A stretch of 64,000 bases of DNA from positions 41,751,912 through 41,815,911 of the forward strand of contig CP136064.1 of assembly GCA_032622095.1 (NCBI GenBank), in the 5' to 3' direction. The stretch comes from Siphonodentalium dalli. Its lineage: Eukaryota > Mollusca > Scaphopoda > Gadilida > Siphonodentaliidae. Every line of letters starts with the position of its first letter. Position 1 is the first letter of the stretch. Shown here one piece after another: positions 2,985 through 43,300 of this stretch. A model generated the notes under the pieces. The model was not told the DNA's origin and searched no databases. It was given only the letters and a program-made list of their open reading frames with translations. The position numbers and the translations under genes were made by a program.

Positions 2985-3491
2985 ATTAGTGCATCTGACA
3001 TTTGCAGAATGAGGTGCACAGAGGGTGAATTTATGATGCTATTCTACACGGCAGGCTATCGGCAAAATTCACCCTCTGGGAACCTCATATTCTGCTTAGG
3101 CCTCAACTGCTATGGGAGACTTGGATCAGATTGAAGTTCCCCAGTTAAGTTGGTGGTGTTCACCCATTAGTCACCTCGATTATGCATTTTCTCTTCTGTA
3201 AATTAGGGGATATAGAAACTGAACAGAAGGGAAAAAGTAACTATTATGAAATAGTGTGTCTGTCATTTGCAGAATGAGGTCCCCAGAGGGTGAATTTAGT
3301 GATGCTATCCCGCATAGCGGGCTAGCATCACAAAATTCACCCTCTGGGGACCTCATTCTGCTTACACCTCAGCAGAATGAGGTTCCCAGAGGGTGAATTT
3401 GGTGCTGCTAGCCCGCTTTGCGGGGTAGCATCACTAAATTCACCCTCTGGGAACCTCATTCTGCAAATGACAGACACACTATTTCAAGGCT
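2985..3491. mobile_element. Family A MITEs: partial copy followed by an intact copy
   Basis: 2985-3245 is a left part with the long centre. From about 3248, aaatagtgtgtctgtcattt starts a complete short copy with two internal hairpins, ending with the complement at 3491. The second seems to have inserted into, or replaced, the right half of the first. Confidence 0.8.
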
Positions 3492-16300: not shown

Positions 16301-19300
16301 CAGCAGATCTAGTCGATCGAACAACCTTCCCTGTACCGTTGTGTAGTTCTTAGCCATGGACTTCAGCAGGACGAATGTTTTCTGGAATATCTTCCTCAAA
16401 CCAGCATACTGATCCTGGAATAACATGTCATAGATTTTAAATTTAACCCTTGTTTTACTGAATGGTTTGTCCCTTACAGTAATGCTCTAAATAATCGACT
16501 CCTTAACGACAGGAGAATTATGGGTAACTTTTCAGGATTTAGTCGGAAATATGGCTTGTTGCCATTCATCGGAAAGCTCTCAGTGAGAGCTTTCCGATAA
16601 ATGGCAACAAGCCATATTTCTGACTAAATCCTGAAAAGTGACCCATAATTCTCCTGTTGTTAAGGAGTCGATTATTTATATGGCATTACTGTATGTATTG
16701 GAATGATCTATTATTCATTTTGAGTGATGTTCAGGTAATAAAGCAGATTACAAAGTTTAGTCAATAATTGTGAGCTCATAAAATGAGGATTTAGCCCAAG
16801 CTGTTTTAATTTGGCCAAAAAATATTTCATTTGGCCAAAATATTTTTTGGCCCAGCGGCAACACTGCCATGGTGCCAAATTGAAACATGGGCAGGAGAGA
16901 ACCAATATTTAAAATAAATAAAGAAGGATATTTCTAGAACGGAAAAAGCTAACAATGCCATTGGGCCCTCTTTTGAAGGAGTCATGATGATGAACCTCCA
17001 TACGGAATTTCATTTAGATCTGATGACCTGTAGCTGAGATATCTGAGAGGACGGTAAAAAAAAACAATATTTCGAGATAAACAAAGAAGGATAACTCTAG
17101 AATGGAAAAAGCGAACAGAGTCATTTACCCCTCTTTTGAAAGTAGTCATGTTGTTGAACAGACAAACCAAATTAATTGAGATCTGTTGAACACTGACTGA
17201 GATATCTGTGCGAAAGGACAATCCAGATTTGAGAAAAAAAGAATAACTCTTGAATGGAAAATGCGAACAACATCATTTGCCCCTCCATTAAAAGTAGTTA
17301 TGATGGCAAACCTACATACCAAATATTATTCAGATCCGATAATCCATGGCTGAAATATATGTCCCTGGACAGACGCCCAACAGATCGATGAACAAACAGA
17401 CGGACAAAATCAATCCAGTATACCCCCCATTATTCTTCAAAAAAGTGGGAGGTACAGTACAAGCCATATTTCCGACTAAATCCTGAAAAGTTACCCATAA
17501 TTATGCTGTGATTAAGGGGTCGATTAATTAGGGCATTACTGTATAATTAGTATAAATTATAATAAAGTCAACTGCCATGATGTCATTAAAATAATTTTAA
17601 CAAACTGAATTACTAAACCATAAGAAAAAATATTAATTGAATTATGACCAAGTGCAAAGTCCATGAACTTAATTACAGAAGATACTAACCAGCAGTTTTA
17701 TGTCAATTTCCTGGGAGAGAATCGTGAAGGCATCCTCAACTACACCTATAGAATAGAAAAAAGGACAGTTATTTTTAATAAATAAGTATTGGAGTATTTG
17801 GCAAAAGATATATTCTACACTGTCATGAATGTTCAAGCCAGCAAATAGCGTGTCTGTCATTTGCAGAATGAGGTCCCCAGAGGGTGAATTTAGTGATGCT
17901 ACCCCACACAGCGGGCTAGCATAACAAAATTCAACCTCTGGAGACCTCATTCTGCTTAGGCCTCATCTTCTGTGAAGTATCTATAGTAACAAATTAACAT
18001 TGTTTTTAGTTACGTTTTCCCTTCTGGGAAGTTTCTATATCCCCGTAATTTTCAGAAGATAAAATCCATAATCGAGGTGCCCAATGGTTGAACATCACCA
18101 ACTTCAACTGTGGAACTTCAATCTGATCGTAGGTCTACCTAAGAGGGCCTAAGCAGAATGAGGTTCCCAGAGGGTGAATTTGGTGATGCTAGCCCGCTAT
18201 GCGGGATAGCATCACTAAATTCACCCCCTGGGGACCTCATTCTGCAAATGACAGACACACTATTTGCAGACTTGTGAATGTTATCTCCGTTACTAGGGTA
18301 TTTATTTTCTAAGAAATAACAAAATATATCACACTTCTGAAGTTGTCAAAATAAACACAGAGGTTTACATAATTTATGTTGTCACCATATGAACGACCTC
18401 TATGCATCCTGCTTGCATTCCAGTCATATAAGAAGCAAATCTTAATCTTATGGAAGAGTTTCTAATAAATACATAATTGATTGATTTTATTTTTTACAAT
18501 AACAAATAATATATAACATAAAAACTGATGGACAAGTAGATGATACGTATTGTACAGGAGCAGCATGACCATGAACAATGATTAGACTCCTTTAACAGAT
18601 TATTACCGTTATTGTAGACAATGCTCTGGTTCATTTGATGGCTCTCTGATCCTTCCGTATCTAACTGGCTCATCCTGATGAAAAAGAAAAGTTCAAATTT
18701 TATTAAATACATTCCAACCAACAAAGATGTAATCCAACAAGATCAAAGACGGCTGCATTCTTTATGAGATTCAATAAAACGTGTACTTTTACATAAATTC
18801 TTTATGTCCAGAAATTTACTCAAAGGACAAAAACATAAACTCCGTGGTCCAGTGGTTAGCGTGTCGGACTTGTATTCGCTGTAAACATATCGATATGGGT
18901 TCGCAGTGTGTCGCCGGTCATTGAGTCTCCACATAGCAGTGGCTTGGCTGCTTTGAGCAACGTGCAATTGTCAGATTGCTCGCTGTTTCAAAACCTGGGC
19001 CAAGTTGTGACCCTTGAGCATGGTCACTCGTACTGTGCCGGCTTCCCATCACTCATGCGTTAAAAGAGTACCAGTCAGCTTGTCATACTGATGAGTATCA
19101 GAGCATGTTCTGATCAAACTAGAGCAGCGCCTGCAATTGCTGCAGCCGGTTCATTGGTTAATTGGCTTGTACAAATGACTGGGGTAATATTGTACCGAGC
19201 GTGTTAGAGCAAGTAATTGGTTAATCGCTATATAAAACTGGTCATTATTATTATTATAAACAGGCCTACAATAATGATAAAGACTTGATACATTCATGTA

Positions 19301-22300
19301 TGTCCAATGAATCAGGGCTAATTTATGCCATATTCAACAAGTTAATTATATGAGATGTTCTTTTTATTTATGATTTTAATATTTGCGAGGCTATGTTACC
19401 GTGTCAGTTTATCCAAGATGCCAGCCAGTTCAGCGGTTTGTTCCACATTGAGCTTGGATGTTGACAGCCGCCTCAGTGTCGGAAGAAGAACCCAAAGCTC
19501 CTGGGCACAATTCACCGATTTATCAGTAATCATAACCTATATAAAACAGAAAGAGATCATCGCCTTAGTAATCATAACCTATATAAAACAGAAAGAGATG
19601 CCATAGTAATCATAACCTATATAAAACAGAAAGAGATGCCATAGTAATCATAACCTATATAAAACATAAAGACATGCCTTAGTAATCATAACCTATATAA
19701 AACAGAAAGAGATGCCTTAGTAATCATAACCTATATAAAACAGAAAGAGATGCCATAGTAATCATAACCTATATAAAACATAAAGACATGCCTTAGTAAT
19801 CATAACCTATATAAAACAGAAAGAGATGCCTTAGTAATCATAACCTATATAAAACAGAAAGAGATGCCATAGTAATCATAACCTATATAAAACAGAAAGA
19901 GATGCCATAGTAATCATAACCTATATAAAACATAAAGACATGCCTTAGTAATCATAACCTATATAAAACAGAAAGAGATGCCTTAGTAATCATAACCTAT
20001 ATAAAACAGAAAGAGATGCCATAGTAATCATAACCTATATAAAACATAAAGACATGCCTTAGTAATCATAACCTATATAAAACAGAAAGAGATGCCTTAG
20101 TAATCATAACCTATATAAAACATAAAGACATGCCTTAGTAATCATAACCTATATAAAACAGAAAGAGATGCCATAGTAATCATAACCTATATAAAACATA
20201 AAGACATGCCTTAGTAATCATAACCTATATAAAACAGAAAGAGATGCCTTAGTAATCATAACCTATATAAAACATAAAGACATGCCTTAGTAATCATAAC
20301 CTATATAAAACAGAAAGAGATGCCTTAGTAATCATAACCTATATAAAACAGAAAGAGATGCCTTAGTAATCATAACCTATATAAAACAGAAAGAGATGCC
20401 ATAGTAATCATAACCTATATAAAACAGAAAGAGATGCCTTAGTAATCATAACCTATATAAAACAGAAAGAGATGCCATAGTAATCATAACCTATATAAAA
20501 CATAAAGACATGCCTTAGTAATCATAACCTATATAAAACAGAAAGAGATGCCTTAGTAATCATAACCTATATAAAACATAAAGACATGCCTTAGTAATCA
20601 TAACCTATATAAAACAGAAAGAGATGCCTTAGTAATCATAACCTATATAAAACAGAAAGAGATGCCTTAGTAATCATAACCTATATAAAACAGAAAGAGA
20701 TGCCATAGTAATCATAACCTATATAAAACAGAATAAAAGGTCGCAGACCACATGTCCCCCGACTCGAGTGGTAAACTTCATGATTGGATACTATTTGCAA
20801 CAATGTTATACAGTTTATATATGTTGCAATCATAACCTATATAAAACAGAAAGAGATGCCTCAGTAATCATAACCTATATAAAACATAAAGACATGCCTT
20901 AGTAATCATAACCTATATAAAACAGAAAGAGATGCCTCAGTAATCATAACCTATATAAAACATAAAGACATGCCTTAGTAATCATAACCTATATAAAACA
21001 GAAAGAGATGCCTTAGTAATCATAACCTATATAAAACATAAAGACATGCCTTAGTAATCATAACCTATATAAAACAGAAAGAGATGCCTTAGTAATCATA
21101 ACCTATATAAAACAGAAAGAGATGCCTTAGTAATCATAACCTATATAAAACAGAAAGAGATGCCTTAGTAATCATAACCTATATAAAACAGAAAGAGATG
21201 CCTTAGTAATCATAACCTATATAAAACAGAAAGAGATGCCTTAGTAATCATAACCTATATAAAACAGAAAGAGATGCCTTAGTAATCATAACCTATATAA
21301 AACAGAAAGAGATGCCTTAGTAATCATAACCTATATAAAACAGAAAGAGATGCCTTAGTAATCATAACCTATATAAAACAGAAAGAGATGCCTTAGTAAT
21401 CATAACCTATATAAAACAGAAAGAGATGCCTTAGTAATCATAACCTATATAAAACAGAAAGAGATGCCTTAGTAATCATAACCTATATAAAGCAGAAAGA
21501 GATGCCTTAGTAATCATAACCTATATAAAGCAGAAAGAGATGCCTTAGTAATCATAACCTATATAAAACAGAAAGAGATGCCTTAGTAATCATAACCTAT
21601 ATAAAACAGAAAGGGATGCCTTAGTAATCATAACCTATATAAAGCAGAAAGAGATGCCTTAGTAATCATAACCTATATAAAACAGAAAGAGATGCCTTAG
21701 TAATCATAACCTATATAAAACAGAAAGAGATGCCTTAGTAATCATAACCTATATAAAACAGAAAGAGATGCCTTAGTAATCATAACCTATATAAAGCAGA
21801 AAGAGATGCCTTAGTAATCATAACCTATATAAAGCAGAAAGAGATGCCTTAGTAATCATAACCTATATAAAACAGAAAGAGATGCCTTAGTAATCATAAC
21901 CTATATAAAACAGAAAGGGATGCCTTAGTAATCATAACCTATATAAAGCAGAAAGAGATGCCTTAGTAATCATAACCTATATAAAGCAGAAAGAGATGCC
22001 TTAGTAATCATAACCTATATAAAGCAGAAAGAGATGCCTTAGTAATCATAACCTATATAAAACAGAAAGAGATGCCTTAGTAATCATAACCTATATAAAA
22101 CAGAAAGAGATGCCATAGCAACCATAGCATATATAATACAGAAAGAGATGCCATAGTAATCATAACCTATATAAAACAGAAAGAGATGCCATAGCAACCA
22201 TAGCCTATATAATACAGAAAGAGATGCCTTAGTAATCATAACCTATATAAAACAGAAAGAGATGCCTTAGTAATCATAACCTATATAAAACAGAAAGAGA

Positions 22301-25300
22301 TGCCTTAGTAATCATAACCTATATAAAACAGAAAGAGATGCCATAGCAACCATAGCATATATAATACAGAAAGAGATGCCATAGTAATCATAACCTATAT
22401 AAAACAGAAAGAGATGCCTTAGTAATCATAACCTATATAAAACAGAAAGAGATGCCTTAGTAATCATAACCTATATAAAACAGAAAGAGATGCCTTAGTA
22501 ATCATAACCTATATAAAACAGAAAGAGATGCCTTAGTAATCATAACCTATATAAAACAGAAAGAGATGCCTTAGTAATCATAACCTATATAAAACAGAAA
22601 GAGATGCCTTAGTAATCATAACCTATATAAAACAGAAAGAGATGCCTTAGTAATCATAACCTATATAAAGCAGAAAGAGATGCCTTAGTAATCATAACCT
22701 ATATAAAACAGAAAGAGATGCCTTAGTAATCATAACCTATATAAAACAGAAAGAGATGCCTTAGTAATCATAACCTATATAAAACAGAAAGGGATGCCTT
22801 AGTAATCATAACCTATATAAAACAGAAAGAGATGCCTTAGTAATCATAACCTATATAAAACAGAAAGAGATGCCTTAGTAATCATAACCTATATAAAGCA
22901 GAAAGAGATGCCTTAGTAATCATAACCTATATAAAACAGAAAGAGATGCCTTAGTAATCATAACCTATATAAAACAGAAAGAGATGCCTTAGTAATCATA
23001 ACCTATATAAAACAGAAAGAGATGCCTTAGTAATCATAACCTATATAAAACAGAAAGAGATGCCTTAGTAATCATAACCTATATAAAACAGAAAGAGATG
23101 CCTTAGTAATCATAACCTATATAAAACAGAAAGAGATGCCTTAGTAATCATAACCTATATAAAACAGAAAGAGATGCCTTAGTAATCATAACCTATATAA
23201 AACAGAAAGAGATGCCTTAGTAATCATAACCTATATAAAACAGAAAGAGATGCCTTAGTAATCATAACCTATATAAAACAGAAAGAGATGCCTTAGTAAT
23301 CATAACCTATATAAAACAGAAAGAGATGCCTTAGTAATCATAACCTATATAAAACAGAAAGAGATGCCTTAGTAATCATAACCTATATAAAACAGAAAGA
23401 GATGCCTTAGTAATCATAACCTATATAAAACAGAAAGAGATGCCTTAGTAATCATAACCTATATAAAGCAGAAAGAGATGCCTTAGTAATCATAACCTAT
23501 ATAAAGCAGAAAGAGATGCCTTAGTAATCATAACCTATATAAAACAGAAAGAGATGCCTTAGTAATCATAACCTATATAAAACAGAAAGGGATGCCTTAG
23601 TAATCATAACCTATATAAAGCAGAAAGAGATGCCTTAGTAATCATAACCTATATAAAACAGAAAGAGATGCCTTAGTAATCATAACCTATATAAAACAGA
23701 AAGAGATGCCTTAGTAATCATAACCTATATAAAACAGAAAGAGATGCCTTAGTAATCATAACCTATATAAAGCAGAAAGAGATGCCTTAGTAATCATAAC
23801 CTATATAAAGCAGAAAGAGATGCCTTAGTAATCATAACCTATATAAAACAGAAAGAGATGCCTTAGTAATCATAACCTATATAAAACAGAAAGGGATGCC
23901 TTAGTAATCATAACCTATATAAAGCAGAAAGAGATGCCTTAGTAATCATAACCTATATAAAGCAGAAAGAGATGCCTTAGTAATCATAACCTATATAAAG
24001 CAGAAAGAGATGCCTTAGTAATCATAACCTATATAAAACAGAAAGAGATGCCTTAGTAATCATAACCTATATAAAACAGAAAGAGATGCCATAGCAACCA
24101 TAGCATATATAATACAGAAAGAGATGCCATAGTAATCATAACCTATATAAAACAGAAAGAGATGCCATAGCAACCATAGCCTATATAATACAGAAAGAGA
24201 TGCCTTAGTAATCATAACCTATATAAAACAGAAAGAGATGCCTTAGTAATCATAACCTATATAAAACAGAAAGAGATGCCTTAGTAATCATAACCTATAT
24301 AAAACAGAAAGAGATGCCATAGCAACCATAGCATATATAATACAGAAAGAGATGCCATAGTAATCATAACCTATATAAAACAGAAAGAGATGCCATAGCA
24401 ACCATAGCCTATATAATACAGAAAGAGATGCCTTAGTAATCATAACCTATATAAAACAGAAAGAGATGCCTTAGTAATCATAACCTATATAAAACAGAAA
24501 GAGATGCCTTAGTAATCATAACCTATATAAAACAGAAAGAGATACCTTAGTAATCATAACCTATATAAAACATAAAGAGATGCCTTAGTAATCATAACCT
24601 ATATAAAGCAGAAAGAGATGCCTTAGTAATCATAACCTATATAAAACAGAAAGAGATGCCTTAGTAATCATAACCTATATAAAACAGAAAGACATGCCTT
24701 AGTAATCATAACCTATATAAAACAGAAAGAGATGCCTTAGTAATCATAACCTATATAAAACAGAAAGAGATGCCTTAGTAATCATAACCTATATAAAACA
24801 GAAAGAGATGCCTTAGTAATCATAACCTATATAAAACAGAAAGAGATGCCTTAGTAATCATAACCTATATAAAACAGAAAGAGATGCCTTAGTAATCATA
24901 ACCTATATAAAACAGAAAGAGATGCCTTAGTAATCATAACCTATATAAAACAGAAAGAGATGCCTTAGTAATCATAACCTATATAAAACAGAAAGAGATG
25001 CCTTAGTAATCATAACCTATATAAAACAGAAAGAGATGCCTTAGTAATCATAACCTATATAAAACAGAAAGAGATGCCTTAGTAATCATAACCTATATAA
25101 AACAGAAAGAGATGCCTTAGTAATCATAACCTATATAAAACAGAAAGAGATGCCTTAGTAATCATAACCTATATAAAACAGAAAGAGATGCCTTAGTAAT
25201 CATAACCTATATAAAACAGAAAGAGATGCCTTAGTAATCATAACCTATATAAAACAGAAAGAGATGCCTTAGTAATCATAACCTATATAAAACAGAAAGA

Positions 25301-28300
25301 GATGCCTTAGTAATCATAACCTATATAAAACAGAAAGAGATGCCTTAGTAATCATAACCTATATAAAACAGAAAGAGATGCCTTAGTAATCATAACCTAT
25401 ATAAAACAGAAAGAGATGCCTTAGTAATCATAACCTATATAAAACAGAAAGAGATGCCTTAGTAATCATAACCTATATAAAACAGAAAGAGATGCCTTAG
25501 TAATCATAACCTATATAAAACAGAAAGAGATGCCATAGTAATCATAACCTATATAAAACATAAAGAGATGCCTTAGTAATCATAACCTATATAAAACATA
25601 AAGAGATGCCTTAGTAATCATAACCTATATAAAACAGAAAGAGATGCCATAGTAATCATAACCTATATAAAACATAAAGAGATGCCTTAGTAATCATAAC
25701 CTATATAAAACAGAATAAAAGGTCGCAGACCACATGTCCCCCGACTCGAGTGGTAAACTTCATGATTGGATACTATTTGCAACAATGTTATACAGTTTAT
25801 ATATGTTGCAATCATAACCTATATAAAACAGAAAGAGATGCCTCAGTAATCATAACCTATATAAAACATAAAGACATGCCTTAGTAATCATAACCTATAT
25901 AAAACAGAAAGAGATGCCTTAGTAATCATAACCTATATAAAACATAAAGACATGCCTTAGTAATCATAACCTATATAAAACAGAAAGAGATGCCTTAGTA
26001 ATCATAACCTATATAAAACATAAAGACATGCCTTAGTAATCATAACCTATATAAAACAGAAAGAGATGCCTTAGTAATCATAACCTATATAAAACAGAAA
26101 GAGATGCCTTAGTAATCATAACCTATATAAAACAGAAAGAGATGCCATAGTAATCATAACCTATATAAAACAGAAAGAGATGCCTTAGTAATCATAACCT
26201 ATATAAAACAGAAAGAGATGCCATAGTAATCATAACCTATATAAAACATAAAGACATGCCTTAGTAATCATAACCTATATAAAACAGAAAGAGATGCCTT
26301 AGTAATCATAACCTATATAAAACATAAAGACATGCCTTAGTAATCATAACCTATATAAAACAGAAAGAGATGCCTTAGTAATCATAACCTATATAAAACA
26401 GAAAGAGATGCCTTAGTAATCATAACCTATATAAAACAGAAAGAGATGCCATAGTAATCATAACCTATATAAAACAGAATAAAAGGTCGCAGACCACATG
26501 TCCCCCGACTCGAGTGGTAAACTTCATGATTGGATACTATTTGCAACAATGTTATACAGTTTATATATGTTGCAATCATAACCTATATAAAACAGAAAGA
26601 GATGCCTCAGTAATCATAACCTATATAAAACATAAAGACATGCCTTAGTAATCATAACCTATATAAAACAGAAAGAGATGCCTCAGTAATCATAACCTAT
26701 ATAAAACATAAAGACATGCCTTAGTAATCATAACCTATATAAAACAGAAAGAGATGCCTTAGTAATCATAACCTATATAAAACATAAAGACATGCCTTAG
26801 TAATCATAACCTATATAAAACAGAAAGAGATGCCTTAGTAATCATAACCTATATAAAACAGAAAGAGATGCCTTAGTAATCATAACCTATATAAAACAGA
26901 AAGAGATGCCTTAGTAATCATAACCTATATAAAACAGAAAGAGATGCCTTAGTAATCATAACCTATATAAAACAGAAAGAGATGCCTTAGTAATCATAAC
27001 CTATATAAAACAGAAAGAGATGCCTTAGTAATCATAACCTATATAAAACAGAAAGAGATGCCTTAGTAATCATAACCTATATAAAACAGAAAGAGATGCC
27101 TTAGTAATCATAACCTATATAAAACAGAAAGAGATGCCTTAGTAATCATAACTATATAAAACAGAAAGAGATGCCTTAGTAATCATAACCTATATAAAAC
27201 AGAAAGAGATGCCTTAGTAATCATAACCTATATAAAACAGAAAGAGATGCCTTAGTAATCATAACCTATATAAAACAGAAAGAGATGCCTTAGTAATCAT
27301 AACCTATATAAAACAGAAAGAGATGCCTTAGTAATCATAACCTATATAAAACAGAAAGAGATGCCTTAGTAATCATAACCTATATAAAACAGAAAGAGAT
27401 GCCTTAGTAATCATAACCTATATAAAACAGAAAGAGATGCCATAGTAATCATAACCTATATAAAACAGAATAAAAGGTCGCAGACCACATGTCCCCCGAC
27501 TCGAGTGGTAAACTTCATGATTGGATACTATTTGCAACAATGTTATACAGTTTATATATGTTGCAATCATAACCTATATAAAACAGAAAGAGATGCCTCA
27601 GTAATCATAACCTATATAAAACATAAAGACATGCCTTAGTAATCATAACCTATATAAAACAGAAAGAGATGCCTCAGTAATCATAACCTATATAAAACAT
27701 AAAGACATGCCTTAGTAATCATAACCTATATAAAACAGAAAGAGATGCCTTAGTAATCATAACCTATATAAAACATAAAGACATGCCTTAGTAATCATAA
27801 CCTATATAAAACAGAAAGAGATGCCTTAGTAATCATAACCTATATAAAACAGAAAGAGATGCCTTAGTAATCATAACCTATATAAAACAGAAAGAGATGC
27901 CTTAGTAATCATAACCTATATAAAACAGAAAGAGATGCCTTAGTAATCATAACCTATATAAAACAGAAAGAGATGCCTTAGTAATCATAACCTATATAAA
28001 ACAGAAAGAGATGCCTTAGTAATCATAACCTATATAAAACAGAAAGAGATGCCTTAGTAATCATAACCTATATAAAACAGAAAGAGATGCCTTAGTAATC
28101 ATAACCTATATAAAACATAAAGACATGCCTTAGTAATCATAACCTATATAAAACAGAAAGAGATGCCTTAGTAATCATAACCTATATAAAACATAAAGAC
28201 ATGCCTTAGTAATCATAACCTATATAAAACAGAAAGAGATGCCTTAGTAATCATAACCTATATAAAACAGAAAGAGATGCCTTAGTAATCATAACCTATA

Positions 28301-31300
28301 TAAAACAGAAAGAGATGCCATAGTAATCATAACCTATATAAAACAGAAAGAGATGCCATAGTAATCATAACCTATATAAAACATAAAGACATGCCTTAGT
28401 AATCATAACCTATATAAAACAGAAAGAGATGCCTTAGTAATCATAACCTATATAAAACATAAAGACATGCCTTAGTAATCATAACCTATATAAAACAGAA
28501 AGAGATGCCTTAGTAATCATAACCTATATAAAACAGAAAGAGATGCCTTAGTAATCATAACCTATATAAAACAGAAAGAGATGCCATAGTAATCATAACC
28601 TATATAAAACAGAAAGAGATGCCTTAGTAATCATAACCTATATAAAACAGAAAGAGATGCCATAGTAATCATAACCTATATAAAACATAAAGACATGCCT
28701 TAGTAATCATAACCTATATAAAACAGAAAGAGATGCCTTAGTAATCATAACCTATATAAAACATAAAGACATGCCTTAGTAATCATAACCTATATAAAAC
28801 AGAAAGAGATGCCTTAGTAATCATAACCTATATAAAACAGAAAGAGATGCCTTAGTAATCATAACCTATATAAAACAGAAAGAGATGCCATAGTAATCAT
28901 AACCTATATAAAACAGAATAAAAGGTCGCAGACCACATGTCCCCCGACTCGAGTGGTAAACTTCATGATTGGATACTATTTGCAACAATGTTATACAGTT
29001 TATATATGTTGCAATCATAACCTATATAAAACAGAAAGAGATGCCTCAGTAATCATAACCTATATAAAACATAAAGACATGCCTTAGTAATCATAACCTA
29101 TATAAAACAGAAAGAGATGCCTCAGTAATCATAACCTATATAAAACATAAAGACATGCCTTAGTAATCATAACCTATATAAAACAGAAAGAGATGCCTTA
29201 GTAATCATAACCTATATAAAACATAAAGACATGCCTTAGTAATCATAACCTATATAAAACAGAAAGAGATGCCTTAGTAATCATAACCTATATAAAACAG
29301 AAAGAGATGCCTTAGTAATCATAACCTATATAAAACAGAAAGAGATGCCTTAGTAATCATAACCTATATAAAACAGAAAGAGATGCCTTAGTAATCATAA
29401 CCTATATAAAACAGAAAGAGATGCCTTAGTAATCATAACCTATATAAAACAGAAAGAGATGCCTTAGTAATCATAACCTATATAAAACAGAAAGAGATGC
29501 CTTAGTAATCATAACCTATATAAAACAGAAAGAGATGCCTTAGTAATCATAACCTATATAAAACAGAAAGAGATGCCTTAGTAATCATAACCTATATAAA
29601 ACAGAAAGAGATGCCTTAGTAATCATAACCTATATAAAACAGAAAGAGATGCCTTAGTAATCATAACCTATATAAAGCAGAAAGAGATGCCTTAGTAATC
29701 ATAACCTATATAAAGCAGAAAGAGATGCCTTAGTAATCATAACCTATATAAAACAGAAAGAGATGCCTTAGTAATCATAACCTATATAAAACAGAAAGGG
29801 ATGCCTTAGTAATCATAACCTATATAAAGCAGAAAGAGATGCCTTAGTAATCATAACCTATATAAAACAGAAAGAGATGCCTTAGTAATCATAACCTATA
29901 TAAAACAGAAAGAGATGCCTTAGTAATCATAACCTATATAAAACAGAAAGAGATGCCTTAGTAATCATAACCTATATAAAGCAGAAAGAGATGCCTTAGT
30001 AATCATAACCTATATAAAGCAGAAAGAGATGCCTTAGTAATCATAACCTATATAAAACAGAAAGAGATGCCTTAGTAATCATAACCTATATAAAACAGAA
30101 AGGGATGCCTTAGTAATCATAACCTATATAAAGCAGAAAGAGATGCCTTAGTAATCATAACCTATATAAAGCAGAAAGAGATGCCTTAGTAATCATAACC
30201 TATATAAAGCAGAAAGAGATGCCTTAGTAATCATAACCTATATAAAACAGAAAGAGATGCCTTAGTAATCATAACCTATATAAAACAGAAAGAGATGCCA
30301 TAGCAACCATAGCATATATAATACAGAAAGAGATGCCATAGTAATCATAACCTATATAAAACAGAAAGAGATGCCATAGCAACCATAGCCTATATAATAC
30401 AGAAAGAGATGCCTTAGTAATCATAACCTATATAAAACAGAAAGAGATGCCTTAGTAATCATAACCTATATAAAACAGAAAGAGATGCCTTAGTAATCAT
30501 AACCTATATAAAACAGAAAGAGATGCCATAGCAACCATAGCATATATAATACAGAAAGAGATGCCATAGTAATCATAACCTATATAAAACAGAAAGAGAT
30601 GCCTTAGTAATCATAACCTATATAAAACAGAAAGAGATGCCTTAGTAATCATAACCTATATAAAACAGAAAGAGATGCCTTAGTAATCATAACCTATATA
30701 AAACAGAAAGAGATGCCTTAGTAATCATAACCTATATAAAACAGAAAGAGATGCCTTAGTAATCATAACCTATATAAAACAGAAAGAGATGCCTTAGTAA
30801 TCATAACCTATATAAAACAGAAAGAGATGCCTTAGTAATCATAACCTATATAAAGCAGAAAGAGATGCCTTAGTAATCATAACCTATATAAAACAGAAAG
30901 AGATGCCTTAGTAATCATAACCTATATAAAACAGAAAGAGATGCCTTAGTAATCATAACCTATATAAAACAGAAAGGGATGCCTTAGTAATCATAACCTA
31001 TATAAAGCAGAAAGAGATGCCTTAGTAATCATAACCTATATAAAACAGAAAGAGATGCCTTAGTAATCATAACCTATATAAAACAGAAAGAGATGCCTTA
31101 GTAATCATAACCTATATAAAACAGAAAGAGATGCCTTAGTAATCATAACCTATATAAAACAGAAAGAGATGCCTTAGTAATCATAACCTATATAAAACAG
31201 AAAGAGATGCCTTAGTAATCATAACCTATATAAAACAGAAAGAGATGCCTTAGTAATCATAACCTATATAAAACAGAAAGAGATGCCTTAGTAATCATAA

Positions 31301-34300
31301 CCTATATAAAACAGAAAGAGATGCCTTAGTAATCATAACCTATATAAAACAGAAAGAGATGCCTTAGTAATCATAACCTATATAAAACAGAAAGAGATGC
31401 CTTAGTAATCATAACCTATATAAAACAGAAAGAGATGCCTTAGTAATCATAACCTATATAAAACAGAAAGAGATGCCTTAGTAATCATAACCTATATAAA
31501 ACAGAAAGAGATGCCTTAGTAATCATAACCTATATAAAACAGAAAGAGATGCCTTAGTAATCATAACCTATATAAAACAGAAAGAGATGCCTTAGTAATC
31601 ATAACCTATATAAAACAGAAAGAGATGCCTTAGTAATCATAACCTATATAAAACAGAAAGAGATGCCTTAGTAATCATAACCTATATAAAGCAGAAAGAG
31701 ATGCCTTAGTAATCATAACCTATATAAAGCAGAAAGAGATGCCTTAGTAATCATAACCTATATAAAACAGAAAGAGATGCCTTAGTAATCATAACCTATA
31801 TAAAACAGAAAGGGATGCCTTAGTAATCATAACCTATATAAAGCAGAAAGAGATGCCTTAGTAATCATAACCTATATAAAACAGAAAGAGATGCCTTAGT
31901 AATCATAACCTATATAAAACAGAAAGAGATGCCTTAGTAATCATAACCTATATAAAACAGAAAGAGATGCCTTAGTAATCATAACCTATATAAAGCAGAA
32001 AGAGATGCCTTAGTAATCATAACCTATATAAAGCAGAAAGAGATGCCTTAGTAATCATAACCTATATAAAACAGAAAGAGATGCCTTAGTAATCATAACC
32101 TATATAAAACAGAAAGGGATGCCTTAGTAATCATAACCTATATAAAGCAGAAAGAGATGCCTTAGTAATCATAACCTATATAAAGCAGAAAGAGATGCCT
32201 TAGTAATCATAACCTATATAAAGCAGAAAGAGATGCCTTAGTAATCATAACCTATATAAAACAGAAAGAGATGCCTTAGTAATCATAACCTATATAAAAC
32301 AGAAAGAGATGCCATAGCAACCATAGCATATATAATACAGAAAGAGATGCCATAGTAATCATAACCTATATAAAACAGAAAGAGATGCCATAGCAACCAT
32401 AGCCTATATAATACAGAAAGAGATGCCTTAGTAATCATAACCTATATAAAACAGAAAGAGATGCCTTAGTAATCATAACCTATATAAAACAGAAAGAGAT
32501 GCCTTAGTAATCATAACCTATATAAAACAGAAAGAGATGCCATAGCAACCATAGCATATATAATACAGAAAGAGATGCCATAGTAATCATAACCTATATA
32601 AAACAGAAAGAGATGCCATAGCAACCATAGCCTATATAATACAGAAAGAGATGCCTTAGTAATCATAACCTATATAAAACAGAAAGAGATGCCTTAGTAA
32701 TCATAACCTATATAAAACAGAAAGAGATGCCTTAGTAATCATAACCTATATAAAACAGAAAGAGATACCTTAGTAATCATAACCTATATAAAACATAAAG
32801 AGATGCCTTAGTAATCATAACCTATATAAAGCAGAAAGAGATGCCTTAGTAATCATAACCTATATAAAACAGAAAGAGATGCCTTAGTAATCATAACCTA
32901 TATAAAACAGAAAGACATGCCTTAGTAATCATAACCTATATAAAACAGAAAGAGATGCCTTAGTAATCATAACCTATATAAAACAGAAAGAGATGCCTTA
33001 GTAATCATAACCTATATAAAACAGAAAGAGATGCCTTAGTAATCATAACCTATATAAAACAGAAAGAGATGCCTTAGTAATCATAACCTATATAAAACAG
33101 AAAGAGATGCCTTAGTAATCATAACCTATATAAAACAGAAAGAGATGCCTTAGTAATCATAACCTATATAAAACAGAAAGAGATGCCTTAGTAATCATAA
33201 CCTATATAAAACAGAAAGAGATGCCTTAGTAATCATAACCTATATAAAACAGAAAGAGATGCCTTAGTAATCATAACCTATATAAAACAGAAAGAGATGC
33301 CTTAGTAATCATAACCTATATAAAACAGAAAGAGATGCCTTAGTAATCATAACCTATATAAAACAGAAAGAGATGCCTTAGTAATCATAACCTATATAAA
33401 ACAGAAAGAGATGCCTTAGTAATCATAACCTATATAAAACAGAAAGAGATGCCTTAGTAATCATAACCTATATAAAACAGAAAGAGATGCCTTAGTAATC
33501 ATAACCTATATAAAACAGAAAGAGATGCCTTAGTAATCATAACCTATATAAAACAGAAAGAGATGCCTTAGTAATCATAACCTATATAAAACAGAAAGAG
33601 ATGCCTTAGTAATCATAACCTATATAAAACAGAAAGAGATGCCTTAGTAATCATAACCTATATAAAACAGAAAGAGATGCCTTAGTAATCATAACCTATA
33701 TAAAACAGAAAGAGATGCCTTAGTAATCATAACCTATATAAAACAGAAAGAGATGCCATAGTAATCATAACCTATATAAAACATAAAGAGATGCCTTAGT
33801 AATCATAACCTATATAAAACATAAAGAGATGCCTTAGTAATCATAACCTATATAAAACAGAAAGAGATGCCATAGTAATCATAACCTATATAAAACATAA
33901 AGAGATGCCTTAGTAATCATAACCTATATAAAACAGAATAAAAGGTCGCAGACCACATGTCCCCCGACTCGAGTGGTAAACTTCATGATTGGATACTATT
34001 TGCAACAATGTTATACAGTTTATATATGTTGCAATCATAACCTATATAAAACAGAAAGAGATGCCTCAGTAATCATAACCTATATAAAACATAAAGACAT
34101 GCCTTAGTAATCATAACCTATATAAAACAGAAAGAGATGCCTCAGTAATCATAACCTATATAAAACATAAAGACATGCCTTAGTAATCATAACCTATATA
34201 AAACAGAAAGAGATGCCTTAGTAATCATAACCTATATAAAACATAAAGACATGCCTTAGTAATCATAACCTATATAAAACAGAAAGAGATGCCTTAGTAA

Positions 34301-37300
34301 TCATAACCTATATAAAACAGAAAGAGATGCCTTAGTAATCATAACCTATATAAAACAGAAAGAGATGCCATAGTAATCATAACCTATATAAAACAGAATA
34401 AAAGGTCGCAGACCACATGTCCCCCGACTCGAGTGGTAAACTTCATGATTGGATACTATTTGCAACAATGTTATACAGTTTATATATGTTGCAATCATAA
34501 CCTATATAAAACAGAAAGAGATGCCTCAGTAATCATAACCTATATAAAACATAAAGACATGCCTTAGTAATCATAACCTATATAAAACAGAAAGAGATGC
34601 CTCAGTAATCATAACCTATATAAAACATAAAGACATGCCTTAGTAATCATAACCTATATAAAACAGAAAGAGATGCCTTAGTAATCATAACCTATATAAA
34701 ACATAAAGACATGCCTTAGTAATCATAACCTATATAAAACAGAAAGAGATGCCTTAGTAATCATAACCTATATAAAACAGAAAGAGATGCCTTAGTAATC
34801 ATAACCTATATAAAACAGAAAGAGATGCCTTAGTAATCATAACCTATATAAAACAGAAAGAGATGCCTTAGTAATCATAACCTATATAAAACAGAAAGAG
34901 ATGCCTTAGTAATCATAACCTATATAAAACAGAAAGAGATGCCTTAGTAATCATAACCTATATAAAACAGAAAGAGATGCCTTAGTAATCATAACCTATA
35001 TAAAACAGAAAGAGATGCCTTAGTAATCATAACCTATATAAAACAGAAAGAGATGCCTTAGTAATCATAACCTATATAAAACAGAAAGAGATGCCTTAGT
35101 AATCATAACCTATATAAAACAGAAAGAGATGCCTTAGTAATCATAACCTATATAAAACAGAAAGAGATGCCTTAGTAATCATAACCTATATAAAGCAGAA
35201 AGAGATGCCTTAGTAATCATAACCTATATAAAGCAGAAAGAGATGCCTTAGTAATCATAACCTATATAAAACAGAAAGAGATGCCTTAGTAATCATAACC
35301 TATATAAAACAGAAAGGGATGCCTTAGTAATCATAACCTATATAAAGCAGAAAGAGATGCCTTAGTAATCATAACCTATATAAAACAGAAAGAGATGCCT
35401 TAGTAATCATAACCTATATAAAACAGAAAGAGATGCCTTAGTAATCATAACCTATATAAAACAGAAAGAGATGCCTTAGTAATCATAACCTATATAAAGC
35501 AGAAAGAGATGCCTTAGTAATCATAACCTATATAAAGCAGAAAGAGATGCCTTAGTAATCATAACCTATATAAAACAGAAAGAGATGCCTTAGTAATCAT
35601 AACCTATATAAAACAGAAAGGGATGCCTTAGTAATCATAACCTATATAAAGCAGAAAGAGATGCCTTAGTAATCATAACCTATATAAAGCAGAAAGAGAT
35701 GCCTTAGTAATCATAACCTATATAAAGCAGAAAGAGATGCCTTAGTAATCATAACCTATATAAAACAGAAAGAGATGCCTTAGTAATCATAACCTATATA
35801 AAACAGAAAGAGATGCCATAGCAACCATAGCATATATAATACAGAAAGAGATGCCATAGTAATCATAACCTATATAAAACAGAAAGAGATGCCATAGCAA
35901 CCATAGCCTATATAATACAGAAAGAGATGCCTTAGTAATCATAACCTATATAAAACAGAAAGAGATGCCTTAGTAATCATAACCTATATAAAACAGAAAG
36001 AGATGCCTTAGTAATCATAACCTATATAAAACAGAAAGAGATGCCATAGCAACCATAGCATATATAATACAGAAAGAGATGCCATAGTAATCATAACCTA
36101 TATAAAACAGAAAGAGATGCCTTAGTAATCATAACCTATATAAAACAGAAAGAGATGCCTTAGTAATCATAACCTATATAAAACAGAAAGAGATGCCTTA
36201 GTAATCATAACCTATATAAAACAGAAAGAGATGCCTTAGTAATCATAACCTATATAAAACAGAAAGAGATGCCTTAGTAATCATAACCTATATAAAACAG
36301 AAAGAGATGCCTTAGTAATCATAACCTATATAAAACAGAAAGAGATGCCTTAGTAATCATAACCTATATAAAGCAGAAAGAGATGCCTTAGTAATCATAA
36401 CCTATATAAAACAGAAAGAGATGCCTTAGTAATCATAACCTATATAAAACAGAAAGAGATGCCTTAGTAATCATAACCTATATAAAACAGAAAGGGATGC
36501 CTTAGTAATCATAACCTATATAAAGCAGAAAGAGATGCCTTAGTAATCATAACCTATATAAAACAGAAAGAGATGCCTTAGTAATCATAACCTATATAAA
36601 ACAGAAAGAGATGCCTTAGTAATCATAACCTATATAAAACAGAAAGAGATGCCTTAGTAATCATAACCTATATAAAACAGAAAGAGATGCCTTAGTAATC
36701 ATAACCTATATAAAACAGAAAGAGATGCCTTAGTAATCATAACCTATATAAAACAGAAAGAGATGCCTTAGTAATCATAACCTATATAAAACAGAAAGAG
36801 ATGCCTTAGTAATCATAACCTATATAAAACAGAAAGAGATGCCTTAGTAATCATAACCTATATAAAACAGAAAGAGATGCCTTAGTAATCATAACCTATA
36901 TAAAACAGAAAGAGATGCCTTAGTAATCATAACCTATATAAAACAGAAAGAGATGCCTTAGTAATCATAACCTATATAAAACAGAAAGAGATGCCTTAGT
37001 AATCATAACCTATATAAAACAGAAAGAGATGCCTTAGTAATCATAACCTATATAAAACAGAAAGAGATGCCTTAGTAATCATAACCTATATAAAACAGAA
37101 AGAGATGCCTTAGTAATCATAACCTATATAAAACAGAAAGAGATGCCTTAGTAATCATAACCTATATAAAACAGAAAGAGATGCCTTAGTAATCATAACC
37201 TATATAAAGCAGAAAGAGATGCCTTAGTAATCATAACCTATATAAAGCAGAAAGAGATGCCTTAGTAATCATAACCTATATAAAACAGAAAGAGATGCCT

Positions 37301-40300
37301 TAGTAATCATAACCTATATAAAACAGAAAGGGATGCCTTAGTAATCATAACCTATATAAAGCAGAAAGAGATGCCTTAGTAATCATAACCTATATAAAAC
37401 AGAAAGAGATGCCTTAGTAATCATAACCTATATAAAACAGAAAGAGATGCCTTAGTAATCATAACCTATATAAAACAGAAAGAGATGCCTTAGTAATCAT
37501 AACCTATATAAAGCAGAAAGAGATGCCTTAGTAATCATAACCTATATAAAGCAGAAAGAGATGCCTTAGTAATCATAACCTATATAAAACAGAAAGAGAT
37601 GCCTTAGTAATCATAACCTATATAAAACAGAAAGGGATGCCTTAGTAATCATAACCTATATAAAGCAGAAAGAGATGCCTTAGTAATCATAACCTATATA
37701 AAGCAGAAAGAGATGCCTTAGTAATCATAACCTATATAAAGCAGAAAGAGATGCCTTAGTAATCATAACCTATATAAAACAGAAAGAGATGCCTTAGTAA
37801 TCATAACCTATATAAAACAGAAAGAGATGCCATAGCAACCATAGCATATATAATACAGAAAGAGATGCCATAGTAATCATAACCTATATAAAACAGAAAG
37901 AGATGCCATAGCAACCATAGCCTATATAATACAGAAAGAGATGCCTTAGTAATCATAACCTATATAAAACAGAAAGAGATGCCTTAGTAATCATAACCTA
38001 TATAAAACAGAAAGAGATGCCTTAGTAATCATAACCTATATAAAACAGAAAGAGATGCCATAGCAACCATAGCATATATAATACAGAAAGAGATGCCATA
38101 GTAATCATAACCTATATAAAACAGAAAGAGATGCCATAGCAACCATAGCCTATATAATACAGAAAGAGATGCCTTAGTAATCATAACCTATATAAAACAG
38201 AAAGAGATGCCTTAGTAATCATAACCTATATAAAACAGAAAGAGATGCCTTAGTAATCATAACCTATATAAAACAGAAAGAGATACCTTAGTAATCATAA
38301 CCTATATAAAACATAAAGAGATGCCTTAGTAATCATAACCTATATAAAGCAGAAAGAGATGCCTTAGTAATCATAACCTATATAAAACAGAAAGAGATGC
38401 CTTAGTAATCATAACCTATATAAAACAGAAAGACATGCCTTAGTAATCATAACCTATATAAAACAGAAAGAGATGCCTTAGTAATCATAACCTATATAAA
38501 ACAGAAAGAGATGCCTTAGTAATCATAACCTATATAAAACAGAAAGAGATGCCTTAGTAATCATAACCTATATAAAACAGAAAGAGATGCCTTAGTAATC
38601 ATAACCTATATAAAACAGAAAGAGATGCCTTAGTAATCATAACCTATATAAAACAGAAAGAGATGCCTTAGTAATCATAACCTATATAAAACAGAAAGAG
38701 ATGCCTTAGTAATCATAACCTATATAAAACAGAAAGAGATGCCTTAGTAATCATAACCTATATAAAACAGAAAGAGATGCCTTAGTAATCATAACCTATA
38801 TAAAACAGAAAGAGATGCCTTAGTAATCATAACCTATATAAAACAGAAAGAGATGCCTTAGTAATCATAACCTATATAAAACAGAAAGAGATGCCTTAGT
38901 AATCATAACCTATATAAAACAGAAAGAGATGCCTTAGTAATCATAACCTATATAAAACAGAAAGAGATGCCTTAGTAATCATAACCTATATAAAACAGAA
39001 AGAGATGCCTTAGTAATCATAACCTATATAAAACAGAAAGAGATGCCTTAGTAATCATAACCTATATAAAACAGAAAGAGATGCCTTAGTAATCATAACC
39101 TATATAAAACAGAAAGAGATGCCTTAGTAATCATAACCTATATAAAACAGAAAGAGATGCCTTAGTAATCATAACCTATATAAAACAGAAAGAGATGCCT
39201 TAGTAATCATAACCTATATAAAACAGAAAGAGATGCCTTAGTAATCATAACCTATATAAAACAGAAAGAGATGCCTTAGTAATCATAACCTATATAAAAC
39301 AGAAAGAGATGCCTTAGTAATCATAACCTATATAAAACAGAAAGAGATGCCTTAGTAATCATAACCTATATAAAACAGAAAGAGATGCCTTAGTAATCAT
39401 AACCTATATAAAACAGAAAGAGATGCCTTAGTAATCATAACCTATATAAAACAGAAAGAGATGCCTTAGTAATCATAACCTATATAAAACAGAAAGAGAT
39501 GCCTTAGTAATCATAACCTATATAAAACAGAAAGAGATGCCTTAGTAATCATAACTATATAAAACAGAAAGAGATGCCTTAGTAATCATAACCTATATAA
39601 AACAGAAAGAGATGCCTTAGTAATCATAACCTATATAAAACAGAAAGAGATGCCTTAGTAATCATAACCTATATAAAACAGAAAGAGATGCCTTAGTAAT
39701 CATAACCTATATAAAACAGAAAGAGATGCCTTAGTAATCATAACCTATATAAAACAGAAAGAGATGCCTTAGTAATCATAACCTATATAAAGCAGAAAGA
39801 GATGCCTTAGTAATCATAACCTATATAAAACAGAAGAGATGCCTTAGTAATCATAACCTATATAAAACAGAAAGAGATGCCTTAGTAATCATAACCTATA
39901 TAAAACAGAAAGAGATGCCTTAGTAATCATAACCTATATAAAACAGAAAGAGATGCCTTAGTAATCATAACCTATATAAAACAGAAAGAGATGCCTTAGT
40001 AATCATAACCTATATAAAACAGAAAGAGATGCCTTAGTAATCATAACCTATATAAAGCAGAAAGAGATGCCTTAGTAATCATAACCTATATAAAACAGAA
40101 AGAGATGCCTTAGTAATCATAACCTATATAAAACAGAAAGAGATGCCTTAGTAATCATAACCTATATAAAGCAGAAAGAGATGCCTTAGTAATCATAACC
40201 TATATAAAACAGAAAGAGATGCCTTAGTAATCATAACCTATATAAAACAGAAAGAGATGCCTTAGTAATCATAACCTATATAAAGCAGAAAGAGATGCCT

Positions 40301-43300
40301 TAGTAATCATAACCTATATAAAACAGAAAGAGATGCCTTAGTAATCATAACCTATATAAAACAGAAAGAGATGCCTTAGTAATCATAACCTATATAAAAC
40401 AGAAAGAGATGCCTTAGTAATCATAACCTATATAAAGCAGAAAGAGATGCCTTAGTAATCATAACCTATATAAAACAGAAAGAGATGCCTTAGTAATCAT
40501 AACCTATATAAAGCAGAAAGAGATGCCTTAGTAATCATAACCTATATAAAACAGAACGAGATGCCTTAGTAGTCATAACCTATATAAAACAGAAAGAGAT
40601 GCCTTAGTAATCATAACCTATATAAAACAGAACGAGATGCCTTAGTAGTCATAACCTATATAAAACAGAAAGAGATGCCTTAGTAATCATAACCTATATA
40701 AAACAGAAAGAGATGCCTTAGTAATCATAACCTATATAAAACAGAAAGAGATGCCTTAGTAATCATAACCTATATAAAACAGAAAGAGATGCCTCAGTAA
40801 TCATAACCTATATAAAACAGAAAGAGATGCCTCAGTAATCATAACCTATATAAAACAGAAAGAGATGCCTTAGTAATCATAACCTATATAAAACAGAAAG
40901 AGATGCCTTAGTAATCATAACCTATATAAAACAGAAAGAGATGCCTTAGTAATCATAACCTATATAAAACAGAAAGAGATGCCTTAGTAATCATAACCTA
41001 TATAAAACAGAAAGAGATGCCTTAGTAATCATAACCTATATAAAACAGAAAGAGATGCCTTAGTAATCATAACCTATATAAAACAGAAAGAGATGCCTTA
41101 GTAATCATAACCTATATAAAACAGAAAGAGATGCCTTAGTAATCATAACCTATATAAAACAGAAAGAGATGCCTTAGTAATCATAACCTATATAAAACAG
41201 AAAGAGATGCCTTAGTAGTCATAACTATATAAAACAGAAAGAGATGCCTTAGTAATCATAACCTATATAAAACAGAAAGAGATGCCTTAGTAATCATAAC
41301 CTATATAAAACAGAAAGAGATACCTTAGTAATCATAACCTATATAAAGCAGAAAGAGATGCCTTAGTAATCATAACCTATATAAAGCAGAAAGAGATGCC
41401 TTAGTAATCATAACCTATATAAAGCAGAAAGAGATGCCTTAGTAATCATAACCTATATAAAGCAGAAAGAGATGCCTTAGTAATCATAACCTATATAAAA
41501 CAGAAAGAGATGCCTTAGTAATCATAACATATATAAAACAGAAAGAGATGCCTTAGTAATCATAACCTATATAAAACAGAAAGAGATGCCTTAGTAATCA
41601 TAACCTATATAAAACAGAAAGAGATGCCTTAGTAATCATAACCTATATAAAACAGAAAGAGATGCCTTAGTAATCATAACCTATATGAAACAGAAAGAGA
41701 TGCCGTAGTAACCATAGCATATATAAAACAGAAAGAGATGCCTTAGTAATCATAACCTATATAAAGCAGAAAGACATGCCATAGCAACCATAGCCTATAT
41801 AATACAGAAAAATATGCATCAACAAGAAATTGTATCAAATGATTCTCATATTCTCAAATGAAAATAGCCAACACTTAAAGATAAACGATCTGATTATACC
41901 AATTCTCCAAACTTGGGTTGGTGTAAACATTATATATTTTGTATCCCAGATATATACAATACTTTACAAGATGATGTACATATACTCAAGCATGGTAAGT
42001 CTGAGAGAGAAGAGGAGATGACGTCAAGCGCCAGGTGCTTAAATGGAGCCATCTTCTCAGAAAAGAACAGTATTTGCGTATTTGGAAAGATAGAACGTGA
42101 GATCGAGAGGTGAGAGATAAAAGATATGGAGTGAAAAACAGAGGAATGAATGAAGTAAAGGTAAAATTTATGGAATGAAAACGGAAACAAAACAAACTTG
42201 GGTTATGACAACCACAAATTTATTTCAGACATTGATAAAAAAAATAAGATTCTCTTCAAACTCACCTGCGCTTGAACAGCACGGTTGAATAGACTGTTGA
42301 AGGTTGAGTAGTAACGGTTGAGTAAATACATACTCCGTCGAATGATATCCTCATAATCATAATGAGACAAGTCCTGCAAGACAACATATGGAAGCATGAA
42401 GTGTTAATTACATCCAGCATTGCAATATGACCTTGCCCAATACCTAATACATGGCACATCTGCGATTTGCGTGATCCTACAATTCTACTGTGGTTGTTAG
42501 CTTGGCAATTGGATTAGTGGTTTTTATGTCTTGTCAGGTTAATGTTGCTATTCAGGTCAGATTTTTTGTTTGAATTATGTCTGAATAGATGCATTTTTAT
42601 ACTAGAATTTTGGATCATAGAATAAACTGTTCACTTCACTGGCAGCTATATGGACCTAAATCATATAAAAAACCCACCGATCATCTAATGACGCGCCATC
42701 AGAATTCACAGCCCATGGCTTGTCGATACAGAAATATGGAATGTATTTTGCTTGTGTATATCTCGCATATAACCATGTGTAAAATACACAGGCTACAGGC
42801 ATCTGGCCACTAGTGTTTACTTATACTTTTATATTTCCCTCTAGTATAGGTGTATTCCGAGACAAATATTATGAAAGACAATGAAGAACAATACCACCAT
42901 AGTGAGTGGACTAACAGAGACCCATACTTACAAGAAGAATATCAGAAAGATCGTAGTGTTTCATGAATGCTGTTTCATCAAATATGACCTTTAATTTCCT
43001 CATCACCTTATTGTTAACTCTGTTAAGAAAGTAAAAAAAATAAGCAATAAATCAATTGTTTTAGTAAGAGAATATATTAACTTGTTCCTTAGACCATTTC
43101 ATGGTCATACTGGGTACTCACCACTACAGATACAAAACTCAGTACGAAAAACAACTCGTTATCCAGCACCACAAAATGACGTCATTGACCCCAATTGACA
43201 TTGGTGGACACAAACATTGGCAAAAAAAATTTGGTTCGCTCATTAAACTTTATCGTCATTTCAGCCAATAGGCCATTTATGATGTCAGCTTTACTGGCCA

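Follow-up and report, generated by a model that had tools for sequence, protein, structure and literature searches.

A 22-kb minisatellite of 3' splice-site units spanning an intron-exon border of a putative IP3 receptor-like gene in the scaphopod Siphonodentalium dalli

Tandem repeats that run across splice junctions have been described in amphioxus as mirages. According to the passages of the two reports considered here, mirages are minisatellite-like tandem duplications of exon/intron boundaries, they occur in Adh3, BflGb6, BflGb9, TnC and PGBD5, and their length instability and somatic instability have been shown (PMC3087553; PMC3902484). They span 5' or 3' borders and, as judged by reverse transcription PCR (RT-PCR), seem not to disturb regular splicing; an intron-gain model for mirages was put forward in the same report (PMC3087553). 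Other large intronic arrays are TRACT, a 30-bp variable number tandem repeat (VNTR) that is 3-30+ kb long and lies within an intron of the human gene CACNA1C (PMC13131567), the gigantic satellite-filled introns of the Drosophila genes kl-3 and kl-5, which depend on special RNA-binding proteins (PMC6508621), and the intronic minisatellites of earthworm metallothionein genes, which are accompanied by fourth-exon duplications (PMC12783039). Here we describe an array, named Array 1, in a 64,000-nt stretch of the genome of the scaphopod mollusc Siphonodentalium dalli (contig CP136064.1, positions 41,751,912 to 41,815,911), hereafter called the window. Array 1 lies at 19525-41817 of the window in intron 9 of a gene on the minus strand, its 38-nt unit consists of the first 12 nt of exon 10 and the last 26 nt of intron 9, and it is very probably a mirage of extreme size.

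Tandem Repeats Finder (TRF) reported Array 1 at 19525-41817 with a period of 38, 585.9 copies and 94% match. On its sense (minus) strand 572 acceptor anchors were counted, and the intervals between them were 38 nt (559 intervals), 37 nt (4), 118 nt (7) and 42 nt (1). Among the 571 units, 21 distinct sequences occur, and 336 units are identical to the consensus GTTATGATTACTAAGGCATCTCTTTCTGTTTTATATAG, in which the first 12 nt of exon 10, GTTATGATTACT, are followed by the final 26 nt of the intron, AAGGCATCTCTTTCTGTTTTATATAG. Of the 572 anchors, 558 retain the AG. The terminal unit (19537-19578, minus strand) is 42 nt long with a 4-nt insertion and carries the acceptor AG of exon 10 at 19538-19537; the first exon base is 19536, and the border of the array given by TRF, 19525, lies exactly 12 nt inside exon 10, where the base just past the array is G, compared with A in the consensus unit. 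The tandem units therefore cross an exon-intron border, and they bear AG/GT splice signals. Array 1 makes up 98% of intron 9, which is 22,729 nt long with the array and would be 448 nt long without it (41818-42265, minus strand). These results bear out the initial annotation of the window, which had been made from the letters alone and had described a 22-kb intronic satellite of 38-bp 3' splice-site units, amplified about 570-fold, with the last unit as the acceptor adjoining exon 10. On the opposite (plus) strand of the array (19525-41817), the TATA-box-like string CTATATAAAAC occurs 479 times.

The branch-point consensus is TACTAAC. The initial annotation had seen a motif of this kind, TACTAAG, in each typical unit at a distance of 24 nt from the acceptor, a description that holds in part. 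The motif is similar to the consensus but ends in G instead of C, and it straddles the joint between units, its TACT being exonic and its AAG intronic. It is kept in 485 of the 559 full 38-mers, while the other 74 carry TACTATG (36), TGCTATG (22), TACTGAG (15) or TACTACG (1) at this site. The distance from the branch A to the end of the AG is indeed 24 nt in the typical unit, but it is 28 nt in the terminal 42-nt unit next to exon 10.

As far as the amphioxus mirages are described in the passages cited above, Array 1 resembles them in that its units cross a true border, adjoin the authentic border and in many cases have AG/GT, in that the units are homogenised except at the edges, and in that the unit size falls within the range known for Adh3 (10-72 bp). 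It differs in scale, since the globin mirage has 6 and 3 units in two haplotypes versus 572 units and 22 kb here, and in lineage, since S. dalli is not a cephalochordate; the instability and the RT-PCR results are amphioxus data, whereas Array 1 is known from sequence. TRACT is like Array 1 in being intronic and in having a similar unit and total length, and its host is a calcium-channel gene; the abstract on TRACT calls it intronic and states no splice-site content (PMC13131567). In kl-3 and kl-5, as here, nearly the whole intron is satellite DNA, but those introns hold megabases of simple satellites, and the abstract does not state an origin from an exon border (PMC6508621). The earthworm metallothionein genes, also lophotrochozoan, likewise carry minisatellite-sized tandem repeats in an intron, but the passages on them are silent on whether the units cross a splice site (PMC12783039). 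Literature searches in one open-licence library, none of them aimed at lophotrochozoan mirages, showed mirages in lancelets only. As far as these searches show, the kind is already known, and what is new is the lophotrochozoan lineage, the scale, with copy numbers well above those of the cases considered, and a hint of enrichment at junctions (see below); mirages would thus extend from lancelets to another animal branch, at a scale that would stress the splicing machinery.

All exons of the host gene are on the minus strand. Exon 9 (42266-42373, 108 nt, 36 codons, phase 0) ends at the donor CAG/GTGAGT (here and below, a slash between bases marks a splice border and a slash in brackets separates alternative bases), and paralogue exon 9 was found in stretches L007 and L011. 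The exon portion of the unit occurs for the last time as the first 12 nt of exon 10 (19400-19536, 137 nt, VMITDKSVNCAQELWVLLPTLRRLSTSKLNVEQTAELAGILDKLT). Exons 11-17 span 11512-18674, exons 11 to 13 being located at 18674-18607, 17745-17690 and 16414-16253, and exons 14 to 17 at 14738-14500, 13506-13425, 12392-12205 and 11625-11512. The nine exons (42373-42266 to 11625-11512) have canonical borders and join into a single open frame of 384 aa. In five concatenated exons the RIH domain (PF01365) was detected with E=1.8e-9 and 37.8 bits, against a cut-off of 22.3, and these results agree with the sense strand assigned in the initial annotation. The matches in PDB were IP3 receptors and were weak, with E about 0.009 for a query containing five wrong residues and E 0.008-0.018 in the main rows of the further matches, single stretches alone being not significant. 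We tentatively regard the host gene as IP3R-like.

The order of events was approached through two paralogues of the host gene, both on contig C2. Paralogue 1 (stretch L007) has an intron of 381 nt at the same position, and the exon after it, GTTTTGATGACACAT, starts with VLMT; in paralogue 2 (stretches L009/L011) the same-position intron is about 20 kb long and the exon, ATTCTATTGACACAA, starts with ILLT. Exon 10 in the window, GTTATGATTACTGAT, starts with VMIT. Intron position and phase agree in all three genes, and the paralogue exons opposite exon 10 read VLMTHDS... and ILLTQDS.... No array like Array 1 was found in the intron of paralogue 2 (about 20 kb), which was fetched and scanned. Because this intron has the same position and phase in both paralogues, where VLMT and ILLT stand at this place, the start of exon 10 is ancestral and the satellite took its 12 nt from the exon. 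We concluded from this comparison that the exon existed before the satellite, the order that had been proposed in the initial annotation.

The 32-base core of the unit, searched with up to 3 mismatches, gave 548 matches in the 2.23 Gb genome, all 548 of which are inside the window, compared with 0 for the reversed control. When 1 mismatch was allowed, a 19-base pattern matched at 542 places genome-wide, 539 of them in the window, and its control at 5. Abundance of the satellite elsewhere in the genome had been named beforehand as an observation that would count against its link to the splice site; no unit-core copy (up to 3 mismatches in 32) was found elsewhere in the genome, which is not the distribution of a dispersed satellite.

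Within Array 1 there are identical blocks of 118, 76 and 68 units. There are also seven identical 118-nt units, each holding an 80-bp insert; one of them is at 20726-20844 and the other six start near 34509, 34049, 29029, 27581, 26590 and 25826, all on the minus strand. The insert is a dispersed genome repeat, as 33 of the 40 matches listed (40 of 791 candidates were scored) lie outside Array 1. Five units are one-off sequences, four of which are among the first 53 units at the end distal to the exon and the fifth of which is the terminal unit. The array thus displays concerted evolution in its interior and less homogenised edges. The identical 118-unit blocks and the seven identical copies of the inserted element are compatible with growth by unequal exchange or by duplication of blocks. 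The unequal exchange suggested at the outset is consistent with both the blocks and the co-amplified insert, and as a process we infer it from them.

To rank the acceptors in Array 1, a position matrix was built from 17 other acceptors (11 of the host gene and 6 of paralogue 1), a small set that gives a rough ranking. The unit scored 10.2, a value reached by 1 of the 2,081 same-strand AGs outside Array 1 and, when the true acceptors were left out in turn, by 2 of the 17. When exon 9 was joined in turn to all 558 AG acceptors, a stop followed within 1-52 codons in 557 cases; the frame stays open for the last acceptor only. Frame and homology together point to splicing to the last acceptor of Array 1. 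No sign of selection against the decoys was seen, for 14 of the 572 anchors are without AG, and several other sites in the unit have more variant copies than this. With 558 AG acceptors of nearly equal strength and one that is right, the choice made between exon 9 and exon 10 would be informative on how acceptors are selected.

These observations are very probably to be explained by a junction-spanning minisatellite that is tolerated by means of exon definition. A small tandem duplication would have brought exon position 12 next to intron position -26, and each resulting unit would contain an acceptor, a pyrimidine tract and, across the unit joint, the branch-point-like TACTAAG. Local duplications of units together with multi-kb block duplications may then have raised the number to 572 copies. 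Every such duplication would leave one intact intron-exon border at the downstream end, so that the array would be tolerated; the last acceptor alone has a whole exon and a donor after it, and exon definition would pick this acceptor. Exon definition is most likely what makes Array 1 harmless, with splicing to exon 10 presumably normal. The anatomy, the exon-first order, the privacy of the locus, the block growth and the one open-frame acceptor among 558 are direct observations, and a similar border-spanning anatomy at other acceptors of the host gene and at myosin and kinesin borders (described below) is consistent with a mirage. Several points weigh against this explanation. The length of the array comes from one assembly, and the exact 4.5-kb internal duplications could partly be assembly effects; recursive splicing could take place, since nearly every unit has AG/GT; and the use of the last acceptor is deduced from frame and homology, with exon definition as its presumed cause.

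Other arrays, which the initial annotation had missed along with those at unrelated genes and the amphioxus precedent, are present in the host gene. Array 2 (48956-49784, minus strand) has a 75-nt unit and 11 copies of ATTCATAG/G. Its unit consists of the first ~41 nt of the adjoining exon (48867-48996, minus strand, VLRLVHYLVKYGYYHRSEDIKLLLEPLMSLLDGRNDKPYPNIS) and a CT-rich intron tail, and the last copy is the acceptor of the exon; compared with the start of the exon at 48996, the 10 upstream copies are identical at 32-38 of 41 nt. This exon boundary is common to paralogue 1 (AG/GTGCTGAGT, VLSLLHHLVKFGYY; tblastn E=1e-7, in a search from which queries with more than two matches were dropped). 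Seven of the 11 copies read ATAG/GTGCTATGA...CTG/GTGAGG or GTGAGA and resemble 24-nt mini-exons with an in-frame TGA. Array 3 (60651-60770, minus strand) is a candidate with four copies of a 30-nt unit, ...TATATATCTTCAG/GTCATTTCATC, before a possible exon VISSKNICFSQGEREQ, for which a homology search yielded no homologue. Array 4, just outside the window at about C4:41824391-41826035 (L016 8480 to L017 124), reads ACCATGCAG/GGTAAGATTGGTTTGAATGCTG and has a 50-nt unit, 32.9 copies according to TRF and 29 exact acceptor strings. For its exon the RIH match is weak (E 0.002, below the curated cut-off), and so is the match to IP3R; the boundary was assigned by splice consensus and frame, and no counterpart was found in the paralogue stretches examined. 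The Array 4 units near the exon read CAG/GGTAAGA, an acceptor almost fused to a donor. A putative donor-side array (L018 7057-7211, 37 nt, 4.2 copies) starts at the putative exon end CTGCAG/GTTAGT, and no homology support was obtained for this exon; a further candidate array lies at L016 4717-4843.

In total, the 104-kb gene region gave 17 TRF rows with a score of at least 100 and a period of at least 20. Two of these rows describe Array 2, and nine with 96-171-bp units were set aside by eye as dispersed-element-like. Of the seven arrays left, two are at paralogue-confirmed acceptors and one at the acceptor of a weakly matched exon, the remaining four being the one at the putative donor, two candidates and one further array (L018 7640). 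Minisatellites that touch no known exon were also noticed in the paralogous gene region, at L014:7210-8078 (29 bp, 30 copies), L014:6907-7039 (33 bp, 4 copies) and L015:1576-1903 (31 bp, 10 copies).

Exons of unrelated genes were surveyed as well, namely 40 of 85 myosin-head matches and 40 of 123 kinesin matches, each together with flanks of about 550 nt (only 275 nt at one side in L076), amounting to 53,747 and 51,525 nt, respectively. The exons were chosen by hand, most of them high in the lists and with much of one myosin cluster avoided, and spanning was judged by eye. Junction-spanning arrays were observed around 7 of the 80 exons, corresponding to six events. Those on the donor side are L057 (18.8 copies), L026 and L028 (2.1 copies; paralogous places, counted once), L088 (3.1 copies), L091 (3.8 copies, with the same 90-nt unit present in L094) and L069 (2.0 copies, the unit including no more than about 4 nt of exon). 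On the acceptor side, L047 has two copies of the full acceptor TTTTACCC(A/G)CAG, between which the first 28-32 nt of the exon are repeated 13-15 times, and the inner units are mostly exon sequence. The array in L051 ends 5 nt before the acceptor and was counted as non-spanning. Among 18 arrays (TRF score at least 100, period at least 20), 6 span a junction compared with 1.67 expected (P 0.004), where each duplication was placed uniformly over 1,100 nt of flank and the list of arrays was fixed after looking. Without L047 there are 5 spanning arrays (P about 0.02), and when L069 is dropped too there are 4 (P about 0.07), all 18 arrays being kept in the simulation. We consider the enrichment of arrays at splice junctions in the S. 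dalli genome suggestive rather than demonstrated. Against a general rule, none of the five arrays in the 29.9-kb stretch of paralogue 1 touches a known exon. The muscle myosin exons match best 2ec6, 2os8, 1dfk, 1b7t and 1qvi, then 3i5f, above the vertebrate muscle myosins listed; we take these six to be scallop and squid structures. A search for the mollusc haemocyanin domain PF14830 yielded no match, and neither did its controls. At C4:274.2-275.5 Mb many myosin-head exon matches with very similar scores form a cluster, which suggests a large local myosin family.

A broader idea is that splice junctions throughout the genome are hot spots of tandem amplification, seeded in connection with splicing or transcription, and that Array 1, with its 558 near-identical competing acceptors, is the extreme case. 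This we hold to be rather doubtful, and slightly more so than before, because the enrichment is no more than suggestive and the support from Array 4 turned out weaker. If the idea is right, Array 1 would be a natural test of exon definition against a first-come or scanning choice of acceptor, and if junction enrichment is genome-wide, it would point to mutation linked to splice sites, which would bear on how introns grow and are gained.

An array with so many strong acceptors might also serve a function, by titrating U2AF, SF1 or PTB-like factors or by delaying the removal of intron 9, and so time splicing or switch the calcium channel through unproductive splicing. The AG intact in 558 of 572 anchors, the strength of the acceptor and the stop that follows any of the 557 earlier joins would suit such a role, and the satellite-filled introns of Drosophila do need special RNA-binding proteins, according to the abstract (PMC6508621). 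However, homogenisation alone keeps units intact, and amphioxus mirages are reported, in the passages cited, not to disturb splicing (PMC3087553). Moreover, a timer or sponge is unlikely because similar arrays exist at unrelated genes, and their presence there and at donors argues for a general mutational process. No evidence of sequestration or of a timer emerged, and on balance we judge a function of this kind improbable.

Recursive splicing, by which joins to decoys would be spliced again from unit to unit until the last acceptor is reached, has in its favour that the usual unit border is AG/GTTATG, GT standing directly after AG in nearly every unit, and that the CAG at the end of exon 9 joined to a decoy rebuilds CAG/GT. 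The donor consensus is GTRAGT. By this consensus GTTATG is a poor donor, so that the unit does not have a strong donor after its AG, and AG/GT is present also at ordinary acceptors of the host gene, those of exons 12 and 14. We therefore regard recursive splicing as very improbable. Equally small, in our estimate, is the chance that a short real mirage was inflated by repeated assembly of the same reads. The exact identical blocks of 118, 76 and 68 units are what such an artefact might produce, but the blocks occur at different spacings and in different contexts, the one-off units are gathered at the distal end and at the terminal unit, and the junction-spanning arrays at other genes are short and of ordinary size. 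Least probable of all is that the satellite came first, the array having landed or grown in the intron and its terminal unit having replaced the start of exon 10, so that VMIT would be satellite-derived: arrays can move, 12 nt are common to unit and exon, and the comparison is limited to paralogues within one genome, but both paralogues have the same intron position and phase with starts VLMT and ILLT, the unit core, searched with up to 3 mismatches in 32, has no match at any other genomic place, and exon sequence is what is repeated at other junctions too.

Two further repeats were noticed that are distinct from the arrays described above. A 103-bp palindrome-like unit, GCAGAATGAG(G/C)TCCCCAGAGGG..., recurs at 3269-3464, 4843-5038 and 50267-50462 of the window and at L019:4745-4940. 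At C1:41806427-41806740 there is an unrelated small array of at least 6 copies of TACTAAGTCGTTATA(G/A)TGG(C/T)ATATATAG, ~46-92 bp apart, which bears a branch-like motif and TATATAG.

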